A stretch of DNA of 64,000 nt from Salinigranum halophilum (GTDB taxonomy: Archaea; Halobacteriota; Halobacteria; Halobacteriales; Haloferacaceae): positions 186,001 through 250,000 of the forward strand of contig NZ_SSNL01000003.1 in assembly GCF_007004735.1 (NCBI RefSeq). Reading direction: 5' to 3'. The notes under the pieces were generated by a model, which saw nothing but the letters and a program-made list of their open reading frames with translations, was not told where the DNA came from and searched no databases. This document shows, one piece after another, positions 4,815-31,976 of the stretch; position 1 is the first letter of the stretch, and the number at the start of each line of letters is the position of its first letter. Made by a program: the position numbers and the translations under genes.

Positions 4815-6215
4815 TCAGCGTCGGTGTAAGCGGAGCCCCCCGATGACGGCGAGCGCCCCGGCGAACAGGAGCGCGCCGACGAGCGGAGCGGCCTGCCCCT
4901 CCGGTTCGAGCATCTCCCGCGTCGGTCGCTCCGTCGTCGCCTCCGCCACCGAGTCGGGCACGGTGGGAGTCGCGTCCGTCCCGACGTACGTGGCGAGCCA
5001 CTCGTCGCGGGGTTCACCGACCGTCTCCTCGACGAGCGTCGCGAACGTCTCGTCCGTCACCGTCCCGTCGTGGGCGTTCACAGCGGCGAACACGTCCTGG
5101 AGCGTCCTGTCGCCGTCGCTCGCTTCTCTGACCTCGACGTCGAGCGCCGCGAGCACGCGCATCCCCTTGAAGTAGCTCGCGCGGTCGGTGACGCTCCGGC
5201 TCTCGCGAAGCACCGCGTCGTTCGTCTCGTCGGTGCGGACGTACTCGACGAACGCCGCCTCCGAGACGTGACCACCCTCCGAGGCGAGCCGCGCCGCGTA
5301 ATACTCCGCGCTGGCGTCGTCGAACCACCGCATCCCCGACCCGGCCTCGTACGCCTGGCGGCTGTGGACGTACTCGTGGAACCACGCGTTGTCCGCCGTC
5401 TCGAGCGGCCGGTCGGCACCGACGTACATGTCCTGTCGGCCGTCGACCTGCGCTCGCGACAGCTTCCCGGGCGCGTCGATGGGTGTCGGCGCGACGAAGA
5501 CGGTCAGCCGCTCGTTCCGCGCGCCGACGCGCAGGTCGTCGGAGGCACCGGCGAGGGCGTCGGCGACGGCGTCGGGCGACGAGACCATGTCGGCCGCCGC
5601 CGGGACGACGAGGCGGATGGTCTCGCCGTCGACCGTCCGCGTCTCGGTCTCGTACGGGCCGAGGTAGGCGTAGCCAGGGCCGACGACGCCCTCGCCCACG
5701 GGCTCGCCACGCTCGACGACGGCCGGTTCGGGCGCGTCTGCCCTCCGACTGTAGCGCCACGCGACGTCCGCGGTGCGCCAGTTGAACAGCGCCCAGTCGC
5801 CCGTGCTCGTCGCCTCGAGCGTGCCCTCGTCGCGCCGGTCGACGTCCGCGACGTAGGTGATGGTCGGCCGGTCGACGGCCGACGCCGCGCCGTCCCACGT
5901 CCACGTTCCGTCCGTGGTCTGTTCGTAGCCGGTGGTCTCGACCACGTCGGCTCCGTCGGGCGGCGAGACAGAGACGCCCGTCACCGAGTCGGGAACCGCC
6001 GTCTCGACCGTCACCCGGACCGTCCCTTCCCGGTCGGGCAGGCGCTCGAACGCGTGCGTGAACGTCAGCACGTTCTCGCCCTGGGTCGCCGTCGCAGTCT
6101 CTGCCGCTCCGCTCGGCGACGCAGCCGCGGGGACGGGGCCAGCCGTCGCCACGACGAGGAGCACCAGTGCCACGGCGACGACCGCCGGCCGCGTCTCCGT
6201 GCCGAGGGGGCTCAT
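4815..6215 (-). CDS. membrane-anchored gluzincin-like metallopeptidase (HExxH)
   Basis: A 466-residue exported protein. Residues 1-32 form a signal peptide, 33-230 a beta-rich domain and 235-400 a metallopeptidase domain with HEYVH at 280-284 and a candidate third ligand Glu304 in DDASAEYYA, one residue further than the common HExxH-x18-E spacing. The last 25 residues form a transmembrane anchor followed by RLHRR, so the catalytic domain faces outside. Its start codon overlaps the stop of the upstream 7TM/ATP-grasp gene by 4 nt (ATGA), indicating co-transcription and coupled translation. The M1/M61-like (gluzincin) assignment rests on motifs only; the substrate is unknown. Confidence 0.82.
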   Translation of the reverse strand: MSPLGTETRPAVVAVALVLLVVATAGPVPAAASPSGAAETATATQGENVLTFTHAFERLPDREGTVRVTVETAVPDSVTGVSVSPPDGADVVETTGYEQTTDGTWTWDGAASAVDRPTITYVADVDRRDEGTLEATSTGDWALFNWRTADVAWRYSRRADAPEPAVVERGEPVGEGVVGPGYAYLGPYETETRTVDGETIRLVVPAAADMVSSPDAVADALAGASDDLRVGARNERLTVFVAPTPIDAPGKLSRAQVDGRQDMYVGADRPLETADNAWFHEYVHSRQAYEAGSGMRWFDDASAEYYAARLASEGGHVSEAAFVEYVRTDETNDAVLRESRSVTDRASYFKGMRVLAALDVEVREASDGDRTLQDVFAAVNAHDGTVTDETFATLVEETVGEPRDEWLATYVGTDATPTVPDSVAEATTERPTREMLEPEGQAAPLVGALLFAGALAVIGGLRLHRR

Positions 6216-8476
6216 TCGCGCTCGTCTCCGAAGACGCCCGTGAGGCCGAACGCCTCCACGCAGAGCCTGCCGACGAAGCCGACGGCGACGAGGACGAACA
6301 GCGCCGTGAACACCGGGAACCCGACGAGGAGCGCACCCGTGAGCAGCGCCCCGCTCGTCAGCCCGCCCCCGATGGTCGAGAGCCGCCGCCGGACGAGGCG
6401 CTCCGACCCGGTCCGCTCGACCGTCGTCTCCGCTCCGTCGGTGGTCTCGTCGGCGTCTTCGTCGGTCGCTCTCCCCTCGCGGTTCGCGTCGGTGTTCGCT
6501 GGACCGACGGCGTCCGCCGCGTCCACAGCGTCCGCTTCACCCGTCCTCTGGGTGGGTTCGACCGCCGTTCCGACGGAGTCGACGGCCGCTGTCGTCTGGC
6601 TCTCGTGCAGGGCGTCCGCGTCCGGAAGCGCTTCGGCGGCGTAGCCGGCCGCGTCCCACTCCTGGGCGAGTTCGATCTTCCGTTCGGCAGGCAGATACTC
6701 GTACTCCGCGGGGAGCGACTCGACGAACTCCAGCCGCCGGAAGAGTCCGTCTCCGGTGGTGTTCTGGATGCCCAGGCCGGGCCGGACGTTCACCTCCAGC
6801 ACCTTCGGGACGTCCCCTTCGGTCAGCACCACGTCGACACCGGTGTAGCCCAGGCCGGAGGCGGCCGCCGCCTCGACGGCGGTCTCGACGACCCCGTCCC
6901 AGTTCGGCAGCCGGAAGTCCGTCAGCGACGCGCCCGTGTCGGGGTGGGCGTCGAGTTCCCTGTCGCGGGACTGCTGGAACGCGCCGAGCGGCGTGCCGTC
7001 GGCGACGTTCAGGCCGACGCCCACGGCCCCCAGGTGGAGGTTCGCCGCGCCGTCGGATGCCTGGGTTGGGAGCCGTGTCATCGCCATCACCGGGTACCCA
7101 CGGAAGACGATGACGCGGACGTCGGCGACGCCATCACCGTGGAGGTCACGCATGAACGCCGCGGGGGTCAGCTTCTCCTCGAGAATTGCCTTCCCGTCCG
7201 ATTCGAGGCCGCTGTACTGCCCGTCGACGATGCGTCGGACGTGGTCGACGAGGTCGCGTTCGGTCATCGGCCCCTTCGAGGTCCGATACTCGTCGCCGTC
7301 GCGGCCGGAGACGACGACGATTCCCTCGCCGCCGTACCCCTTGCTGGGCTTGACGACGAACTCGTCGCGCTCTGTGACGACGCGGCTCGCGACGTCGAGG
7401 TCGGTGCTGTCGTCGACGACCGCGTACGTCCTGGGGGACTCGACGCCGAGGCCCGTGAAGCGGCGGTTGACGTGCGCCTTCTCGTCCGCGCTCGGTCGGA
7501 GATGCGGTGGGTTGTACTCCTCGATGTACTGGTTGCGGCGCTTCATCGCGAGCACTTCCGTCTCCTCGAGTTCGGGCTCGTCGACGTCGCGGCCGGCGAG
7601 CCGAGCCAGTCTGCGTCCGTACCGCGCCAGGCGCAGTCGAAGCCGAAGTACGCCGACCGACACCGGCCCGCGTCTGCCGTCGAAGTGGCCGCCGAAGCGG
7701 CGGAGCTCCGAGAGCCGGAAGGTCGGACGCGAGCCGAGATACGCCACCAGGAGTAGCGTCACGCCCCACGCGACCGGCGTCGTCATGAACCAGTCGACGA
7801 GCGCGTCGGTCGAGATGACCAGATACGCGACGACGATGGCGACGAGCGTCCCCAGGAGACGCTTCGCGGGTGCGGTCCAGCCGCGCTCTTCGATGTCGGA
7901 GGCCGCACGGTCGGCGTACCACGCGCTGATGATGGTCGGGAAGAACACCTCCTGTGAGTTCGTGAGTGGCGGCAGGAGGCCGACGTCGCTGGCGACGAAC
8001 GCTAGCGCCGTTGCGATTCCCGCGACAGAGAGCAACACGGCGACGCGCGGTGCGGTTCCGAGCTTCAGTGGCTGCAGCGCGCGGTAGCTGAGAAGCGTCA
8101 CCACCAGCACGTTCACGAACAGTATCGCGCCCCAGACCGGACCCGCGCCGACCATGATGAACGCGATGACGACCGGCGCGAACAGGCCGTACGTCCGCAG
8201 GCCGACCTCGTTTCTGACGACGGCCATCACCGCGCCGGCGAGCACGATCTGGAAGAAGATTCGCGACCGGTCGAGTGCGACCGAGAGGCCGACCGTCTGG
8301 CCGACCAGCACGCCGGCGGCGCTGAGCAGGCTCGCGAGGAGGACGAGTGGGCCGAACGTCCGTGCCTGCTCTCCGAGCCACGCACTCGCGGCGTTCCGGT
8401 GGGTGCCCGAATCGCCTCCACCGGGTGGTTCGTGTTCGAGACTGCCGTCGGTTCGTCTGCCCGCGTCGTGGGCCAT
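6212..8476 (-). CDS. 7TM (UUP1/transglutaminase-associated) domain fused to RimK-related ATP-grasp ligase
   Basis: A 754-residue fusion. Residues 40-250 contain about seven helices resembling the 7TM module normally attached to an inactive transglutaminase (UUP1 family). Residues 310-600 match the RimK-related alpha-L-glutamate-ligase-like ATP-grasp family: MKRRNQYIEEYNP entry, FVVKPSKGYGGEGI (375-386) for ATP binding, EEKL (433-436), DVRVIVFRG (452-460), and Mg-binding Glu561/Asn563 in LEVNVRPG. An acidic linker (620-690) and two helices (705-740) end the protein. In proteobacteria the two modules are usually adjacent separate genes. Predicted activity is peptide-bond or amide formation at the inner membrane face. 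A TATA box (8497-8502) sits 24 nt before the ATG. Confidence 0.85.
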   Translation of the reverse strand: MAHDAGRRTDGSLEHEPPGGGDSGTHRNAASAWLGEQARTFGPLVLLASLLSAAGVLVGQTVGLSVALDRSRIFFQIVLAGAVMAVVRNEVGLRTYGLFAPVVIAFIMVGAGPVWGAILFVNVLVVTLLSYRALQPLKLGTAPRVAVLLSVAGIATALAFVASDVGLLPPLTNSQEVFFPTIISAWYADRAASDIEERGWTAPAKRLLGTLVAIVVAYLVISTDALVDWFMTTPVAWGVTLLLVAYLGSRPTFRLSELRRFGGHFDGRRGPVSVGVLRLRLRLARYGRRLARLAGRDVDEPELEETEVLAMKRRNQYIEEYNPPHLRPSADEKAHVNRRFTGLGVESPRTYAVVDDSTDLDVASRVVTERDEFVVKPSKGYGGEGIVVVSGRDGDEYRTSKGPMTERDLVDHVRRIVDGQYSGLESDGKAILEEKLTPAAFMRDLHGDGVADVRVIVFRGYPVMAMTRLPTQASDGAANLHLGAVGVGLNVADGTPLGAFQQSRDRELDAHPDTGASLTDFRLPNWDGVVETAVEAAAASGLGYTGVDVVLTEGDVPKVLEVNVRPGLGIQNTTGDGLFRRLEFVESLPAEYEYLPAERKIELAQEWDAAGYAAEALPDADALHESQTTAAVDSVGTAVEPTQRTGEADAVDAADAVGPANTDANREGRATDEDADETTDGAETTVERTGSERLVRRRLSTIGGGLTSGALLTGALLVGFPVFTALFVLVAVGFVGRLCVEAFGLTGVFGDERE

Positions 8477-8496: not shown

Positions 8497-8532
8497 TATA
8501 AAGGGGTCTCTCACAAACGCGTCCAAAGGGTG
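8497..8532 (-). promoter_or_regulatory. promoter of the 7TM/ATP-grasp gene: TATA box plus 29-nt conserved upstream element (copy 1)
   Basis: On the minus strand a TTTATA box (8497-8502) lies about 24 nt before the ATG at 8476, implying a leaderless transcript. Immediately upstream is a 29-nt element (8504-8532) that recurs with two mismatches at 9408-9436 at almost the same distance from the next ATG-initiated gene. Its core reads CCCTTTGGA, then GCGTTTG, then GAGAGACCC. Confidence 0.7.
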
Positions 8533-8690: not shown

Positions 8691-9380
8691 TCACGGCTGT
8701 CTGTTCGCCCCGACGAATACGTCGCGGCCACGCCCGACGGTCCTGCCGAGTCGAACGTCGACGCCAGCGGGGAGTGCCCGCAGCGAGAACTCCGCACGCG
8801 TCCACTCGCGGACGTCTTCGAGTCGTCCGTGGACGGGACGCTGGTCGCAGTCGTCCGGGAGAGCGTTGACGAACCGGAGCCGGCGGAACAGCCCGCTCTC
8901 CCTCGTGTCCTGCAGCGCCAGTCCGGGACGGCTGTCGACGGCCAGCACCACCGGGTCGTCGCCCGCGGCCAGCGTGACGTCGACGACGTAACAGATGCCG
9001 GGCGTGTCGACGGCGCGCGTCGCCGCTCCGACGACCGCTTCCCAGTTCGGTATCCGGACGCCGGTCAGCGGCACACCCGTATCGGGGTGCCTGGCTACCG
9101 TCTCCGGCGATACGAGGCGGCACGCCCCGTCCGCCGCCCCGTCGGATACGGAGAGCCGAACGCCGAGCGCCCCGTGGTAGAGGCTCACGGACCCGCTCGA
9201 CGCCTCGGTCGGCACCCGCGCCAGCGCCACGACGGGGTAGCCACGGTAGACGACGAGACGGATGTCCGCAACACCGCTTGGGTGGAAGCCGGCCACGAAC
9301 GCCGCTGGCTCCGGGGGCTCACAGCCGTGTGCCGTGTCCGCGGGTTCGTGTTCTTTCGCCGTGAACGTCTCCCAGTCCAT
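8691..9380 (-). CDS. truncated, degenerate paralogue of the ATP-grasp ligase domain
   Basis: A 229-residue protein whose residues about 25-205 align with residues 439-620 of the downstream 7TM/ATP-grasp protein: GVADIRLVVYRGYPVVAL matches GVADVRVIVFRGYPVMAM, and HPDTGVPLT, RIPNWE and GLFRRLRFV also recur. It lacks the 7TM part and the ATP-binding N-terminal half. The metal-binding LEVNVRPG has become LAVDSRPG, losing the Glu and Asn. It is thus either a pseudoenzyme/regulator of its neighbour or a decaying duplicate. The ATG at 9380 is chosen because it keeps the spacing to the duplicated promoter element. Confidence 0.72.
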   Translation of the reverse strand: MDWETFTAKEHEPADTAHGCEPPEPAAFVAGFHPSGVADIRLVVYRGYPVVALARVPTEASSGSVSLYHGALGVRLSVSDGAADGACRLVSPETVARHPDTGVPLTGVRIPNWEAVVGAATRAVDTPGICYVVDVTLAAGDDPVVLAVDSRPGLALQDTRESGLFRRLRFVNALPDDCDQRPVHGRLEDVREWTRAEFSLRALPAGVDVRLGRTVGRGRDVFVGANRQP

Positions 9381-9401
9381 ACAGTCAGGCCTATCAGAGA
9401 G

Positions 9402-9436
9402 AGAAAAGGGTCTCTCGCAAACGCATCCAAAGGGTG
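9402..9436 (-). promoter_or_regulatory. promoter of the truncated ATP-grasp paralogue: element copy 2 with degenerate TATA
   Basis: The 29-nt element at 9408-9436 is 27/29 identical to 8504-8532 and stands 28 nt from the ATG at 9380 (27 nt in the other copy). The TATA-like box next to it (TTTTCT, 9402-9407) is weaker than in copy 1. Confidence 0.6.
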
Positions 9437-9535
9437 ATGCGTGGGTCACAGCGGGACGTCCGTCCCCGCTTACTCGCGTGCCGACCGTCGCACGCCACTG
9501 TGCGACCACGCTACGCTTGCTCCTGTCGTCCGACG

Positions 9536-9556
9536 CACGGGGACGGAGTCCCCGTG
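9536..9556. promoter_or_regulatory. perfect 9-bp inverted repeat in divergent intergenic region
   Basis: CACGGGGAC and GTCCCCGTG are separated by GGA, forming a perfect dyad. It lies about 100 nt before the regulator gene at 9657 and about 156 nt upstream of the divergent gene at 9380. It could be an operator or an RNA hairpin; nothing in the sequence decides between them. The rest of the 9437-9656 gap shows only a weak TATA-like ATTAGA near 9617. Confidence 0.45.
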
Positions 9557-9656
9557 TCAGAGCCGCTTCCGGCCGTCTCGGCGCTCGTCTCGACCGGGAT
9601 AACTCTCCGGAACACATTAGACACGTCAGTCCTACCGCGAAACTGACCAGTCTTCC

Positions 9657-11237
9657 ATGCGCGCCACTCCTGCCCTCGTGGTCGTCGCTTTGCTCGTATT
9701 CGCGCCGACCCTCGCGGCTGCAACACCCGACGCCTCGACCGGTGACGCTGCCCCGCTCACGAGTGGCCCCGTCACCGACTTCTCGGCAGAGAGTGACAGC
9801 GATGGTGACGGTGACGGGGATTCGGGTTCGACGGACTCCGACTCGACAGACTCCGACTCGACAGACTCCGACTCGACAGACTCCGACTCGACGGATTCGG
9901 GTTCAACGGATTCCGATTCGATTGACTCTGATTCGACAGACTCCGATTCAACGGATTCCGACTCGACAGACTCCGACTCGGCGGACTCGGATTCGACGGA
10001 CTCGGATTCAACGGATGGCGATGAGTCTGCAGAGACGGAGACGACCGAGACGGCTGAGGGGGAGACGGAGACGGCCGAGAGGGAGACGGAGACGGCCGAG
10101 AGGGAGACGGAGACGGCCGAGAGAGAGACGGAGACGGCCGAGAGGGAGACGGAGACGGCCGAGAGAGAGACGGAGACGGCTGAGGAGGAGACGGAGACGG
10201 CCGAGAGAGAGACGGAGACGGCTGAGGAGGAGACGGAGACGGAGACGGCTGAGGAGGAGACGGAGACGGAGACGGCTGAGAGAGAGACCGAGACGGATGC
10301 CGAGACGGGGCGGAACGAGACCGAGACACGGGCCACCGAGCGAACCGAACGCGGAACGTCGAAGACAGCGGTCGAACCCGACTCCGAGCCCGCGGAGCGG
10401 ACCGAGGTCGCTGTCGCCGCCAGGAACGACGATGACGACTCGGGCGGGTCGGAGGGCGTCGACTCGACCGGCTTCGGTCCGGAGTCTGCGGGTACAGGCG
10501 TGGCCATCGGTGCCGGGGCGCTGGCGGCGGGTGCCATCGCCCGTCGCGTCGCCTTCTCGGGGTCGACGGGCGCGAGTGCGAGTGCGGCGAGCGTCGCATC
10601 GACGACGGCCACGACCGCCCCGCGCGGCCTCGCGCGTCTCGCCCGCTCGTCGCTCGTGGACCTCGCCGATCGGGTACAGGCCGTCGCCTCGGACTGGGTC
10701 GGCCGGGTTCTCGCCGCGGCGGGCTACACGAAGTGGGCGGGTAACGACCCGCTCGAACACGACACCCGCGCGGAGTTGTACGACCACGTCCAGGCTGAGC
10801 CGGGCACGTACCTCTCGGCGTTCGAGGATACTCCAGCCGTCGACGCCACCCTCGGGACGGTCCGGTACCACCTGAAGATTCTTGAGCGCGAGAGGCTCGT
10901 CACCTCCGAGAAGGTCCAGGGAAAGCGGCGGTACTACCCCATCGGTAGTTCGCCGGACGCACTTGACGTCGCCCTCGAGGGTGACTCGACCCGTGCCATC
11001 CTGGAAGCGCTCACGGCCTCGCCGGACTCGGTGTCTGGCCTCGCCGACCGGGTCGACCGCGACCCGAGCACGGTCTCACACCACCTCACCCGACTGGAAG
11101 CGCAGGGGCTCGTCGAGCGCGAGCGCGACGGGCAGGCGGTGACGAACCGGCTCACGCCGGGCGTCGAGGCACTCCTCTCTCAGGGGCCGTTCGCCGAGAG
11201 TGGACCGGGTGCCGATCGGACGGCAGCCGACGACTGA
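9657..11237 (+). CDS. predicted membrane-spanning regulator: signal peptide, SD/ET-repeat stalk, transmembrane segment, two winged-helix domains
   Basis: 526 residues. 1-22 form a signal peptide. 45-55 are Asp/Ser/Gly-rich; 56-120 hold 13 tandem five-residue units of the type SDSTD; about 127-212 hold seven-residue units of the type ETETAER. A short hydrophobic segment (279-295, GTGVAIGAGALAAGAIA) is followed by RR, predicting an outside-to-inside orientation. 365-430 and 441-505 are two winged-helix domains; the first has LGTVRYHLKILE, the second PSTVSHHLTRLE, both typical recognition helices of ArsR/MarR-like regulators. The likely role is a membrane-tethered DNA-binding protein with a long acidic surface stalk. 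Its ligand and targets are unknown. Confidence 0.8.
   Translation: MRATPALVVVALLVFAPTLAAATPDASTGDAAPLTSGPVTDFSAESDSDGDGDGDSGSTDSDSTDSDSTDSDSTDSDSTDSGSTDSDSIDSDSTDSDSTDSDSTDSDSADSDSTDSDSTDGDESAETETTETAEGETETAERETETAERETETAERETETAERETETAERETETAEEETETAERETETAEEETETETAEEETETETAERETETDAETGRNETETRATERTERGTSKTAVEPDSEPAERTEVAVAARNDDDDSGGSEGVDSTGFGPESAGTGVAIGAGALAAGAIARRVAFSGSTGASASAASVASTTATTAPRGLARLARSSLVDLADRVQAVASDWVGRVLAAAGYTKWAGNDPLEHDTRAELYDHVQAEPGTYLSAFEDTPAVDATLGTVRYHLKILERERLVTSEKVQGKRRYYPIGSSPDALDVALEGDSTRAILEALTASPDSVSGLADRVDRDPSTVSHHLTRLEAQGLVERERDGQAVTNRLTPGVEALLSQGPFAESGPGADRTAADD
9822..10295 (+). repeat. coding tandem repeats: 15-nt (SDSTD) then 21-nt (ETETAER) units
   Basis: Two adjoining in-frame minisatellites inside the regulator gene. 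9822-10016 has 13 units of 15 nt; about 10035-10292 has 21-nt units with some 27-nt variants. Codon variation (TCG/TCC, GAC/GAT) is present in the first block, while the second is nearly homogeneous and so is likely younger and prone to length change. Confidence 0.85.
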
Positions 11238-11467: not shown

Positions 11468-12478
11468 ATGTCAATCGAATTTGAACGGCAGGTCCAGGAG
11501 GCGACCTTCTACAGCCCGCTCGAGGATTTCGAGGAGACGACCGTCGAGACCGAGGTCAGAGTGGACCCGCTCACCGGCCGGACGGCCCGGGTCGTCACGG
11601 ACAACTTCCTGATGCCGGAGTCGCCAGCCATCGACGACTCGGTTCTCGACAGCGAGGGCTGTTTCTTCTGCCCCGGAACCGTCGAGGAGGCGACGCCGAA
11701 GTACCCCGACTGGATTGCCCCCGACCGGGGCAAGAGCGGCGAGGCGACGTCGTTTCCGAACCTCAACCCCTACGGCGCGTACTCGAACGTGGTCGCGCTC
11801 ACCGAAGAGCACTTCGTCCCTATCGACGAGTTCACCACGGAGCAGTTCGCCGACGGCCTCTGTGCGGCCTTCCAGTACGTCCGCGACGTCTTCGACCACG
11901 ACGACGACGCCCGCTTCGCGTCGGTGAACATGAACTACCTTCGACCGGCGGGGTCGAGCCTCATCCACCCACACATGCAGACGCTCGTCGACGACCGTGG
12001 GACGAACGAACAGCGCCGCGTCGCCGAGGCCGCCCGCGACTTCTACGACGCCAACGACGAGGTGTACTGGTCGGAACTGGCTATCGACGAGCGCGGCGGT
12101 GACCGCTACGTCGCGGAGATCGGTAACGTCCACTGGCTCGCGCCGTTCGCCCCGAAACACCACCGCCACCTCGTCGGCGTCGCCGCACAGATCCACTCCG
12201 GCGTCCCCGACCCGCGCGGCGACGTGACCCACGACTTCGCGGAGGGACTGGTCGACGTCCTCTCGTACTACGCCTCGCTGGGGTTGAACAGCTTCAACGT
12301 CGCGCTCTTCGTCGAACGGGACGACCCCGCTCTCCCCCCGGTCATGAACGTCACCGCCCGGTCGGTGTTCGACGAGTACTACTGGAGCGACGCGACGTTC
12401 TTCACGTCGCTGCACGACGAGGGCGTCGTCGACGTCGCTCCCGAGGTGTACGGCAAGGAGGCCCACAAGTTCTTCTGA
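11468..12478 (+). CDS. galactose-1-phosphate uridylyltransferase-like protein
   Basis: A 336-residue member of the HIT superfamily, GalT branch. The active-site motif HPHMQT sits near residue 173, and CFFCPGT near 63 supplies the Cys pair of a structural zinc site. A second-half PFAPKHHRHL fits the C-terminal GalT domain. GalT enzymes transfer UMP between hexose-1-phosphates (Leloir pathway); no other galactose gene is near, so another nucleotidyl transfer is possible. The start at 11468 (MSIEFER) was taken because upstream in-frame sequence is not GalT-like and TATA-like CTTTTC lies about 30 nt upstream. Confidence 0.85.
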   Translation: MSIEFERQVQEATFYSPLEDFEETTVETEVRVDPLTGRTARVVTDNFLMPESPAIDDSVLDSEGCFFCPGTVEEATPKYPDWIAPDRGKSGEATSFPNLNPYGAYSNVVALTEEHFVPIDEFTTEQFADGLCAAFQYVRDVFDHDDDARFASVNMNYLRPAGSSLIHPHMQTLVDDRGTNEQRRVAEAARDFYDANDEVYWSELAIDERGGDRYVAEIGNVHWLAPFAPKHHRHLVGVAAQIHSGVPDPRGDVTHDFAEGLVDVLSYYASLGLNSFNVALFVERDDPALPPVMNVTARSVFDEYYWSDATFFTSLHDEGVVDVAPEVYGKEAHKFF

Positions 12479-31004: not shown

Positions 31005-31976
31005 TCACCGGCGGACCAGCCAGAACACGAACCCACCGAGCAGGACCGTCGTCCCGCCGAGGAAGAAGAGCAGGCCCGGAGAGGCCGCGGCACCCCCGAG
31101 CACGCCCGGTTGCGCCGCCGTGGCGGCAGCGGTCGCCTCGACGGTCGCGTCGGCGACCGGCGTCGGAACCGGTGTCGCGGTTCCCGTCGGCGTCGTCTCC
31201 GGCAGCGCCGTCGCGACGGGCGTCGCCGTCTGCGTCGCCGTCGGCGCGGGTGTCGCCGTCATCGCGGCGGTCGTGTCGGCCACCGCCGTGGCCTCTGTCG
31301 GGCCCGTCGCGGTCGTCGTCGCCTCGGCGATCTGGAACCCGCCTCCCCCCGTCGTGGTCTCGACTGCCGTTCTCGTCGTGGTTTCGGTCGCGACCTCGGT
31401 CGCCGTCTGTTCGGGTGTCGGGGCCGCCGCACCGCCGCCGCTCACACTGCCGTCTCCCGCTCCCGTCGTCGACGGTGCGCCCCCGCCGTCGGCACCTCCA
31501 CCCTCCGCTCCCCCGGCACTCGTCCCGAAGCCCACAGAGCGCCCCTCCCGCGCGAGTCGGTCGACGACGACGCTGGCGAGGCCGAGGACGCCCACCCCAC
31601 CCAGGAGGCGCGCGAGGGCGGCCTTCAGCCCCGTCGTCTCCTCCTGTCGGCCGGCGACGACGACGAGCGCGCGGTCGGCGGGGACGTAGACGTTCATCTC
31701 TCGACCCTTCTCGGAGTAGACCGTGTCACCCACCTCGACGAGACCGGCGTCCTCGAGTTTCCGGAGGTGGTACTGGACGTTCTGGAGCGAGGTGTCGACC
31801 CGGCTGGCTACCTCCGACGCCGACGCGGGTTCCTCGTGGAGGGCAGCGAGGACCGCGCGCGTTGTCGACGACGACAGGGCGTCGATGAGTTCGTCCGCGT
31901 CGTCGGAGTCGAGGCCGACGACCCGGGGTTCCTCGTTCGGGTCGATGTCGGGCTTGGAGGGCAGGAGACCGGCCAT
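31005..31976 (-). CDS. membrane-tethered ArsR-type HTH protein with Thr/Ala/Pro-rich external loop
   Basis: 323 residues. 25-100 form a winged helix (SSTTRAVLAALHEEP, then SASEVASRVDTSLQNVQYHLRKLE). A hydrophobic segment lies at about 123-138. 145-290 are low-complexity Gly then Thr/Ala/Pro/Glu, apt for O-glycosylation. 301-320 form a last helix ending LVRR. Predicted topology: HTH domain inside, disordered loop outside, C-terminus inside. Start at 31976 is preferred over longer in-frame options because the N-terminus then matches related regulators. A direct sensor role is inference. Confidence 0.8.
   Translation of the reverse strand: MAGLLPSKPDIDPNEEPRVVGLDSDDADELIDALSSSTTRAVLAALHEEPASASEVASRVDTSLQNVQYHLRKLEDAGLVEVGDTVYSEKGREMNVYVPADRALVVVAGRQEETTGLKAALARLLGGVGVLGLASVVVDRLAREGRSVGFGTSAGGAEGGGADGGGAPSTTGAGDGSVSGGGAAAPTPEQTATEVATETTTRTAVETTTGGGGFQIAEATTTATGPTEATAVADTTAAMTATPAPTATQTATPVATALPETTPTGTATPVPTPVADATVEATAAATAAQPGVLGGAAASPGLLFFLGGTTVLLGGFVFWLVRR

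Follow-up and report, generated by a model that had tools for sequence, protein, structure and literature searches.

A candidate membrane-tethered winged-helix regulator with an acidic repeat stalk beside an envelope gene cassette in Salinigranum halophilum

Little is known about how haloarchaea monitor their S-layer and the salt around them. A gene in the window analysed here (a stretch of 64,000 nucleotides from Salinigranum halophilum) raises the question of whether one polypeptide could join the outside of the cell to a cytoplasmic DNA-binding module, and whether the envelope genes next to it could be its targets. From N to C terminus, the encoded protein comprises a signal peptide, 13 SDSTD-type pentads, an ETETAER array, a hydrophobic segment followed by RR, and two winged helices, exactly as the first-pass annotation had described the ORF (Table 1). 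The frame is considered real because all four sections (signal peptide, stalk, hydrophobic segment, winged helices) are again joined in a single ORF in Salinigranum salinum, another congener, and about 12 other genera. Overlapping ORFs across the repeats (9262-10875 on the plus strand and 9632-10612 on the minus strand) were rejected as by-products of repetitive GC-rich DNA, conserved ends being present only in the annotated frame.

Table 1. Coordinates (window positions) of the stalked protein, its parts, and the neighbouring genes and promoter elements.
Feature	Position	Strand	Basis or remark
Stalked dual winged-helix protein, CDS	9657..11237	+	526 aa
Sec-type signal peptide, aa 1-22 (MRATPALVVVALLVFAPTLAAA)	9657..9722	+	KD19 2.16; kept in orthologs; cleavage site inferred
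SDSTD repeat array, 15-bp units	9828..10015	+	TRF x12.5, score 201; pentad count
ETETAER repeat array, 21-bp units	10043..10297	+	TRF x about 10 at 10043-10269, score 275
Candidate transmembrane segment, aa 277-297	10485..10547	+	Uncharged 19-residue run, then RR; AlphaFold2: not helix
Predicted helix joining membrane segment to winged helices, aa 323-357	10623..10727	+	AlphaFold2, fragment H62-96, pLDDT about 60-80
Winged helix 1, HTH_HVO_0163_N, aa 369-429	10761..10943	+	Pfam; AlphaFold2 pLDDT >90
Winged helix 2, ArsR/HTH_20-like, aa 439-501	10971..11159	+	Pfam, NCBIfam, AlphaFold2, PDB neighbours
Presumed target: fused RloB-like 7TM + RloC/RimK-like ATP-grasp protein	6212..8476	-	PF14397 4.6e-59, PF14402 5.4e-23; TIGR02291, NF052267
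Presumed target: partial ATP-grasp paralog	8691..9380	-	Start MDWETF; PF14397 2.7e-24; ortholog in L042
Cassette member: exported, membrane-anchored putative zinc metallopeptidase (HEYVH)	4815..6215	-	Sequence; adjoins ATP-grasp gene in S. salinum too
Conserved promoter element, copy A (TTTGGACGCGTTTGTGAGAGACCC)	8504..8527	-	28 nt before ATG of 7TM-ATP-grasp gene
Conserved promoter element, copy B (TTTGGATGCGTTTGCGAGAGACCC)	9408..9431	-	28 nt before ATG of second ATP-grasp gene

The nearest named relative is S. salinum (74% identical), and the same layout is found in Halospeciosus, Halolamina, Halorarius, and many Natrialbaceae. In a tree built from the winged helices only, the 17 haloarchaeal proteins with both stalk and membrane segment form one clade (93/79; 93% of bootstrap trees), and stalk and segment are retained together across at least four families. 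Among the 242 genomes of a class-wide sample, long-frame members that match the model from the membrane/linker end on occur mostly in family f4, inferred from its named relatives to be Natrialbaceae.

The stalk is strongly acidic, residues 23-270 containing 93 D/E versus 14 K/R (net charge -79), and no folded domain was found in the N-terminus. Both arrays are true tandem DNA repeats according to TRF; all 13 pentads fit [SD][DG]S[TIA]D, with exact SDSTD in nine, and the full ETETAER occurs in seven of the 10 ETETAE units. Repeat units are wholly different among orthologs (TP/ETETEAS, DSTADSDT, ETTDTVDE): the proteins of S. salinum and congener G048 keep all sections but build the stalk from other units (TP and ETETEAS; DSTADSDT), and across the haloarchaeal family stalks of 140-500 aa consist of unrelated acidic repeats. 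In view of this turnover, what the family shares in its stalks is length, negative charge, and position rather than repeat sequence. One example, a Natronococcus pandeyae member (L062:6270-8558), has a stalk of ~500 aa made of ETTDTVDETTDETE-like units with a net charge of about -210. The external part had earlier been likened to Sdr proteins. Its composition does resemble the (S/T)D repeats of staphylococcal Sdr/Clf serine-aspartate stalks; homology, on the other hand, was rejected, since the orthologs have no common repeat units and the NCBIfam Sdr matches are weak, low-complexity, and far under the cut-off scores. The likeness is thus one of convergent composition and, unlike Sdr/Clf, the stalked protein has neither an MSCRAMM (adhesin) domain nor an LPXTG motif.

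Whether the chain crosses back into the cell depends on the hydrophobic segment, whose residues 279-295 (GTGVAIGAGALAAGAIA, then RR) are Gly/Ala-rich. Hydropathy is weak (KD19 1.48, against 1.41-1.87 in the family) and alone does not decide on crossing, because the family values overlap those that soluble haloarchaeal proteins reach (1.3-1.8). The corresponding segments are weak and G/A/S-rich in every member, with an ITASGAAAG type in Natrialbaceae. AlphaFold2 renders the segment as low-confidence coil in a model of aa 262-526 and as a 16-residue helix, also of low confidence, in a Natronorubrum homolog. In all 16 members tested, stalk and winged helices are separated by 19 or more uncharged residues in a row, and charge flips across this run: summed over these members, the 60 aa before the segment hold 31 K/R and 184 D/E, while the linker after it holds 66 K/R and 23 D/E and is net positive in 16/16. 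Net-positive stretches make up only 7.2% of the 50-aa windows taken from 19 soluble haloarchaeal proteins. Because this flip occurs in all 16 proteins, the segment probably spans the membrane, and the tethered-regulator layout proposed in the first-pass annotation gains from both the positive-inside pattern and the single clade. An internal PGF-CTERM/archaeosortase signal was also considered, as GFGP...ARR looks similar, and was rejected: the motif is internal and gave no TIGR04126 match at E up to 5. Elsewhere in the window, a cousin of reverse polarity (31008-31976, minus strand) carries an N-terminal ArsR-type winged helix and an HVO_1552_C domain; a stalk rich in A/T/P comes next, and the C-terminus is formed by a hydrophobic segment that closes with RR. 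The genome has related copies elsewhere (L006, L008).

A sister group (L061, L064, L066-L079, and L002, the second, signal-peptide-only paralog of this genome on contig C7) has dual winged helices, clear signal peptides, and no second hydrophobic segment, so that its DNA-binding domains would be placed outside the cell by simple topology rules. By analogy, the segment of the stalked protein might not span the membrane at all, and its winged helices might act outside, for example in extracellular DNA binding or as a structural module. The hydropathy within the soluble range, the absence of a helix at the segment in AlphaFold2, and the sister group itself all fit such full export. It is nevertheless improbable, given the sharp positive-inside charge switch in every member, the conserved recognition helices, and the intact soluble version without signal peptide in congener G027, which is described below.

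With regard to the presumed cytoplasmic half, winged helix 1 matches PF24266 (HTH_HVO_0163_N; E 4.5e-12, 46.3 bits versus a curated cut-off of 31) and winged helix 2 matches PF12840 (HTH_20; aa 446-488, E 9.3e-16, 58 bits versus a cut-off of 27). Both reach pLDDT >90 in the aa 262-526 model, each resembles ArsR/SmtB folds with CzrA/SmtB/NolR as PDB neighbours, and the two recognition helices are conserved throughout the family. Metal or thiol sensing of the ArsR kind is unlikely, as the 526-aa protein contains no cysteine, although its C-terminal helix does score above NF033788. The DNA-binding half thereby belongs with the HVO_0163-type dual winged-helix proteins (PF24266 + HTH_20), whose Pfam definition covers the N-terminal HTH domain only and does not take in the combination of signal peptide, stalk, and membrane segment. 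HVO_0163 itself is listed, as a protein of the ArsR type, among those raised by hypochlorite stress (PMC10294847). Most tethered members finish in a short (A/P)ADD C-terminal tail (here 11220-11237), possibly a recognition or degradation tag.

The first-pass annotation had also guessed that the protein regulates the ATP-grasp cassette beside it. Both ATP-grasp genes are transcribed divergently from the stalked gene, and the cassette also includes a CPBP protease and the putative metallopeptidase, for which no Pfam match was obtained. The RloB 7TM and RloC ATP-grasp domain matches lie under the curated NCBIfam cut-offs (62 vs 900 and 244 vs 314 bits). It was reported that the rlo operon of Pseudomonas aeruginosa (RloA-RloB-RloC) affects hypo-osmotic tolerance (PMC12239564). 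An inactive-transglutaminase-type 7TM protein and an ATP-grasp/RimK-related ligase appear to be common to both systems; however, the two are fused into one protein here, the host is archaeal, and the partner peptidase is the putative metallopeptidase in place of a retropepsin, no RloA retropepsin being seen in the cassette. On the other side of the regulator, each of the four Salinigranum genomes has a GalT-like gene (11468-12478, plus strand; 88-94% identity), whose sole Pfam match, DUF4921, is below threshold.

Upstream of the two ATP-grasp genes, a 24-bp element (TTTGGAYGCGTTTGYGAGAGACCC) abuts the TATA/BRE region and ends 27-29 nt before the start codon. A search of 148 Haloferacaceae genomes with up to 3 mismatches returned five copies, all at this locus in three Salinigranum genomes; four precede ATP-grasp genes and one, in congener G048, precedes a gene remnant. 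The five copies agree at 79-94% of positions inside the element, compared with 17-44% in the sequence upstream of it and 26-62% in that downstream, and two diverged paralogous promoters of one genome both retain it. The G048 copy lies before a small ORF (L042:7276-7603, minus strand) whose N-terminus resembles that of the 7TM-ATP-grasp gene; the promoter of this relic is intact. A role as the mark of a genome-wide regulon was rejected, since the element is present at this locus only. The RloBC-like genes of other Haloferacaceae have neither the element nor a tethered neighbour, and the promoter of the stalked gene itself carries no copy.

The soluble version in congener G027 provides a natural control, in which stalk, membrane segment, and presumed targets are deleted together. 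What is left of the signal-peptide region is a stub (22/31 identical) that runs into a stop. Neither stalk nor membrane segment survives, and an intact ORF for winged helices, predicted to be cytosolic, follows; the 7TM-ATP-grasp gene survives only as a frame-broken remnant, and the element is gone. In the winged-helix-only tree this version nests inside the clade of 17 tethered proteins, which is read as loss. It therefore seems that tether and presumed targets were lost together and that the winged helices persisted as a cytosolic protein. The joint loss is a single event and is partly confounded, since the element went with the genes to which it belongs: it is a mark of ATP-grasp promoters, and its absence alongside gene loss is partly automatic. 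Together with the restriction of the element to this locus, the joint loss lends sequence-level support to the guess that the divergent cassette is regulated by the stalked protein.

The reading that we favour, with moderate confidence, is that of a membrane-tethered one-component regulator of the neighbouring envelope cassette. The signal peptide would export the N-terminus, the acidic stalk of 250 residues would extend outward from the membrane, within the S-layer zone or across it, and the weak Gly/Ala-rich segment would cross back and leave the two winged helices in the cytoplasm. There they may bind the 24-bp element that borders the TATA/BRE region of the neighbouring divergent envelope genes, so that the state of the cell surface would switch the 7TM-ATP-grasp gene and its partial paralog, by activation or repression. 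A local envelope target is not universal in the family, because the tethered gene of Natrialbaceae (L053, L058, L060, and L062) adjoins mutS, mostly head-to-head. In favour of the reading, other genera have it head-to-head with other surface genes: the partner encodes a surface protein with SD repeats in Halospeciosus, and in Halolamina a PGF-CTERM protein. A gas-vesicle (gvp) cluster, assigned by eye from protein sequences, was also observed 1-3 kb from the tethered gene in the same four Natrialbaceae loci.

Three further explanations accept much of this topology and depart from the favoured reading at different steps. The stalk could be a passive, fast-evolving spacer or a surface charge coat, with constitutive C-terminal domains and no sensing through it, which is compatible with a tethered regulator. 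The unrelated repeat units, the spread of lengths from 140 to 500 aa, and the lack of a folded domain at the N-terminus are what such a spacer would predict; yet at least four families retain the stalk along with the membrane segment despite the turnover of sequence, which indicates selected length and charge, and we consider a purely passive stalk rather doubtful. It is also conceivable that the tether is real and that another factor (another wHTH protein or a specific TFB) binds the element, the stalked protein regulating other or distant genes or only itself. The mutS and other neighbours in other genera, the RloBC-like genes that have neither element nor tethered neighbour, and the element-free promoter of the stalked gene would all be expected in that case. 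A site restricted to one locus is nevertheless unlike that of a general factor, and two diverged paralogous promoters of one genome have retained it. Binding by another factor is a live rival, if a rather unlikely one.

With the same topology and target as the favoured reading, the mechanism could instead be regulated release, in which the tether is a dormant form and a surface signal leads to rhomboid- or site-2-type cleavage in the helix-breaking Gly/Ala/Ser-rich segment, the freed dual winged helix then acting as regulator. Intramembrane proteases prefer weak G/A/S-rich helices, and such cleavage is a live variant, given that the membrane segments of every member combine unusual weakness with a high content of these residues. 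The naturally soluble version in G027 and the presence of both a putative exported metallopeptidase and a CPBP protease in the cassette agree with it, as do the two rhomboids that act at the cell surface of Haloferax volcanii, whose natural substrates are unknown (PMC11985538). No protease has been linked to the family through co-occurrence, however, and the soluble form in G027 persists without the presumed targets, so that release is assigned a low probability.

At its broadest, the favoured reading would extend to a haloarchaea-wide tethered family that senses the surface through a wholly disordered polyanionic stalk, where salt, S-layer integrity, or tension would act on the stalk and be relayed by the metastable Gly/Ala segment, possibly through cleavage, to winged helices controlling neighbouring envelope genes; this generalization is speculative. 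The locus nevertheless offers a compact testable pair, a regulator whose sole outside part is a charged repeat stalk and a promoter element found only beside that regulator. If correct, it would represent a regulator that crosses the membrane yet lacks a folded sensor domain, and that several haloarchaeal families have conserved. No description of haloarchaeal membrane-anchored wHTH or stalk regulators was found in the open-licence papers.

Among known systems, ToxR and CadC begin with an OmpR-type winged helix in the cytoplasm and fold their periplasmic part into a domain; CadC acts on its neighbouring operon. In principle the protein described here would likewise join the outside to a cytoplasmic winged helix in one polypeptide, but its polarity is opposite and no homology to ToxR/CadC was found. 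Closer in its host domain is the ArnR/ArnR1 pair of Sulfolobus acidocaldarius, membrane-bound one-component regulators that control cell-surface structures through short defined promoter boxes (PMC6396743). In ArnR the HTH comes first, at the N-terminus, followed by HAMP-like and sensor domains; two TM segments form the C-terminal end, and neither a signal peptide nor an exposed stalk is present (PMC6396743). No HAMP or sensor domain of this kind was detected by Pfam in the stalked protein, the order of domains is reversed, and two winged helices are present. What the two systems may have in common is an archaeal HTH regulator held at the membrane and, as proposed for the locus described here, control of the cell surface through short promoter boxes.
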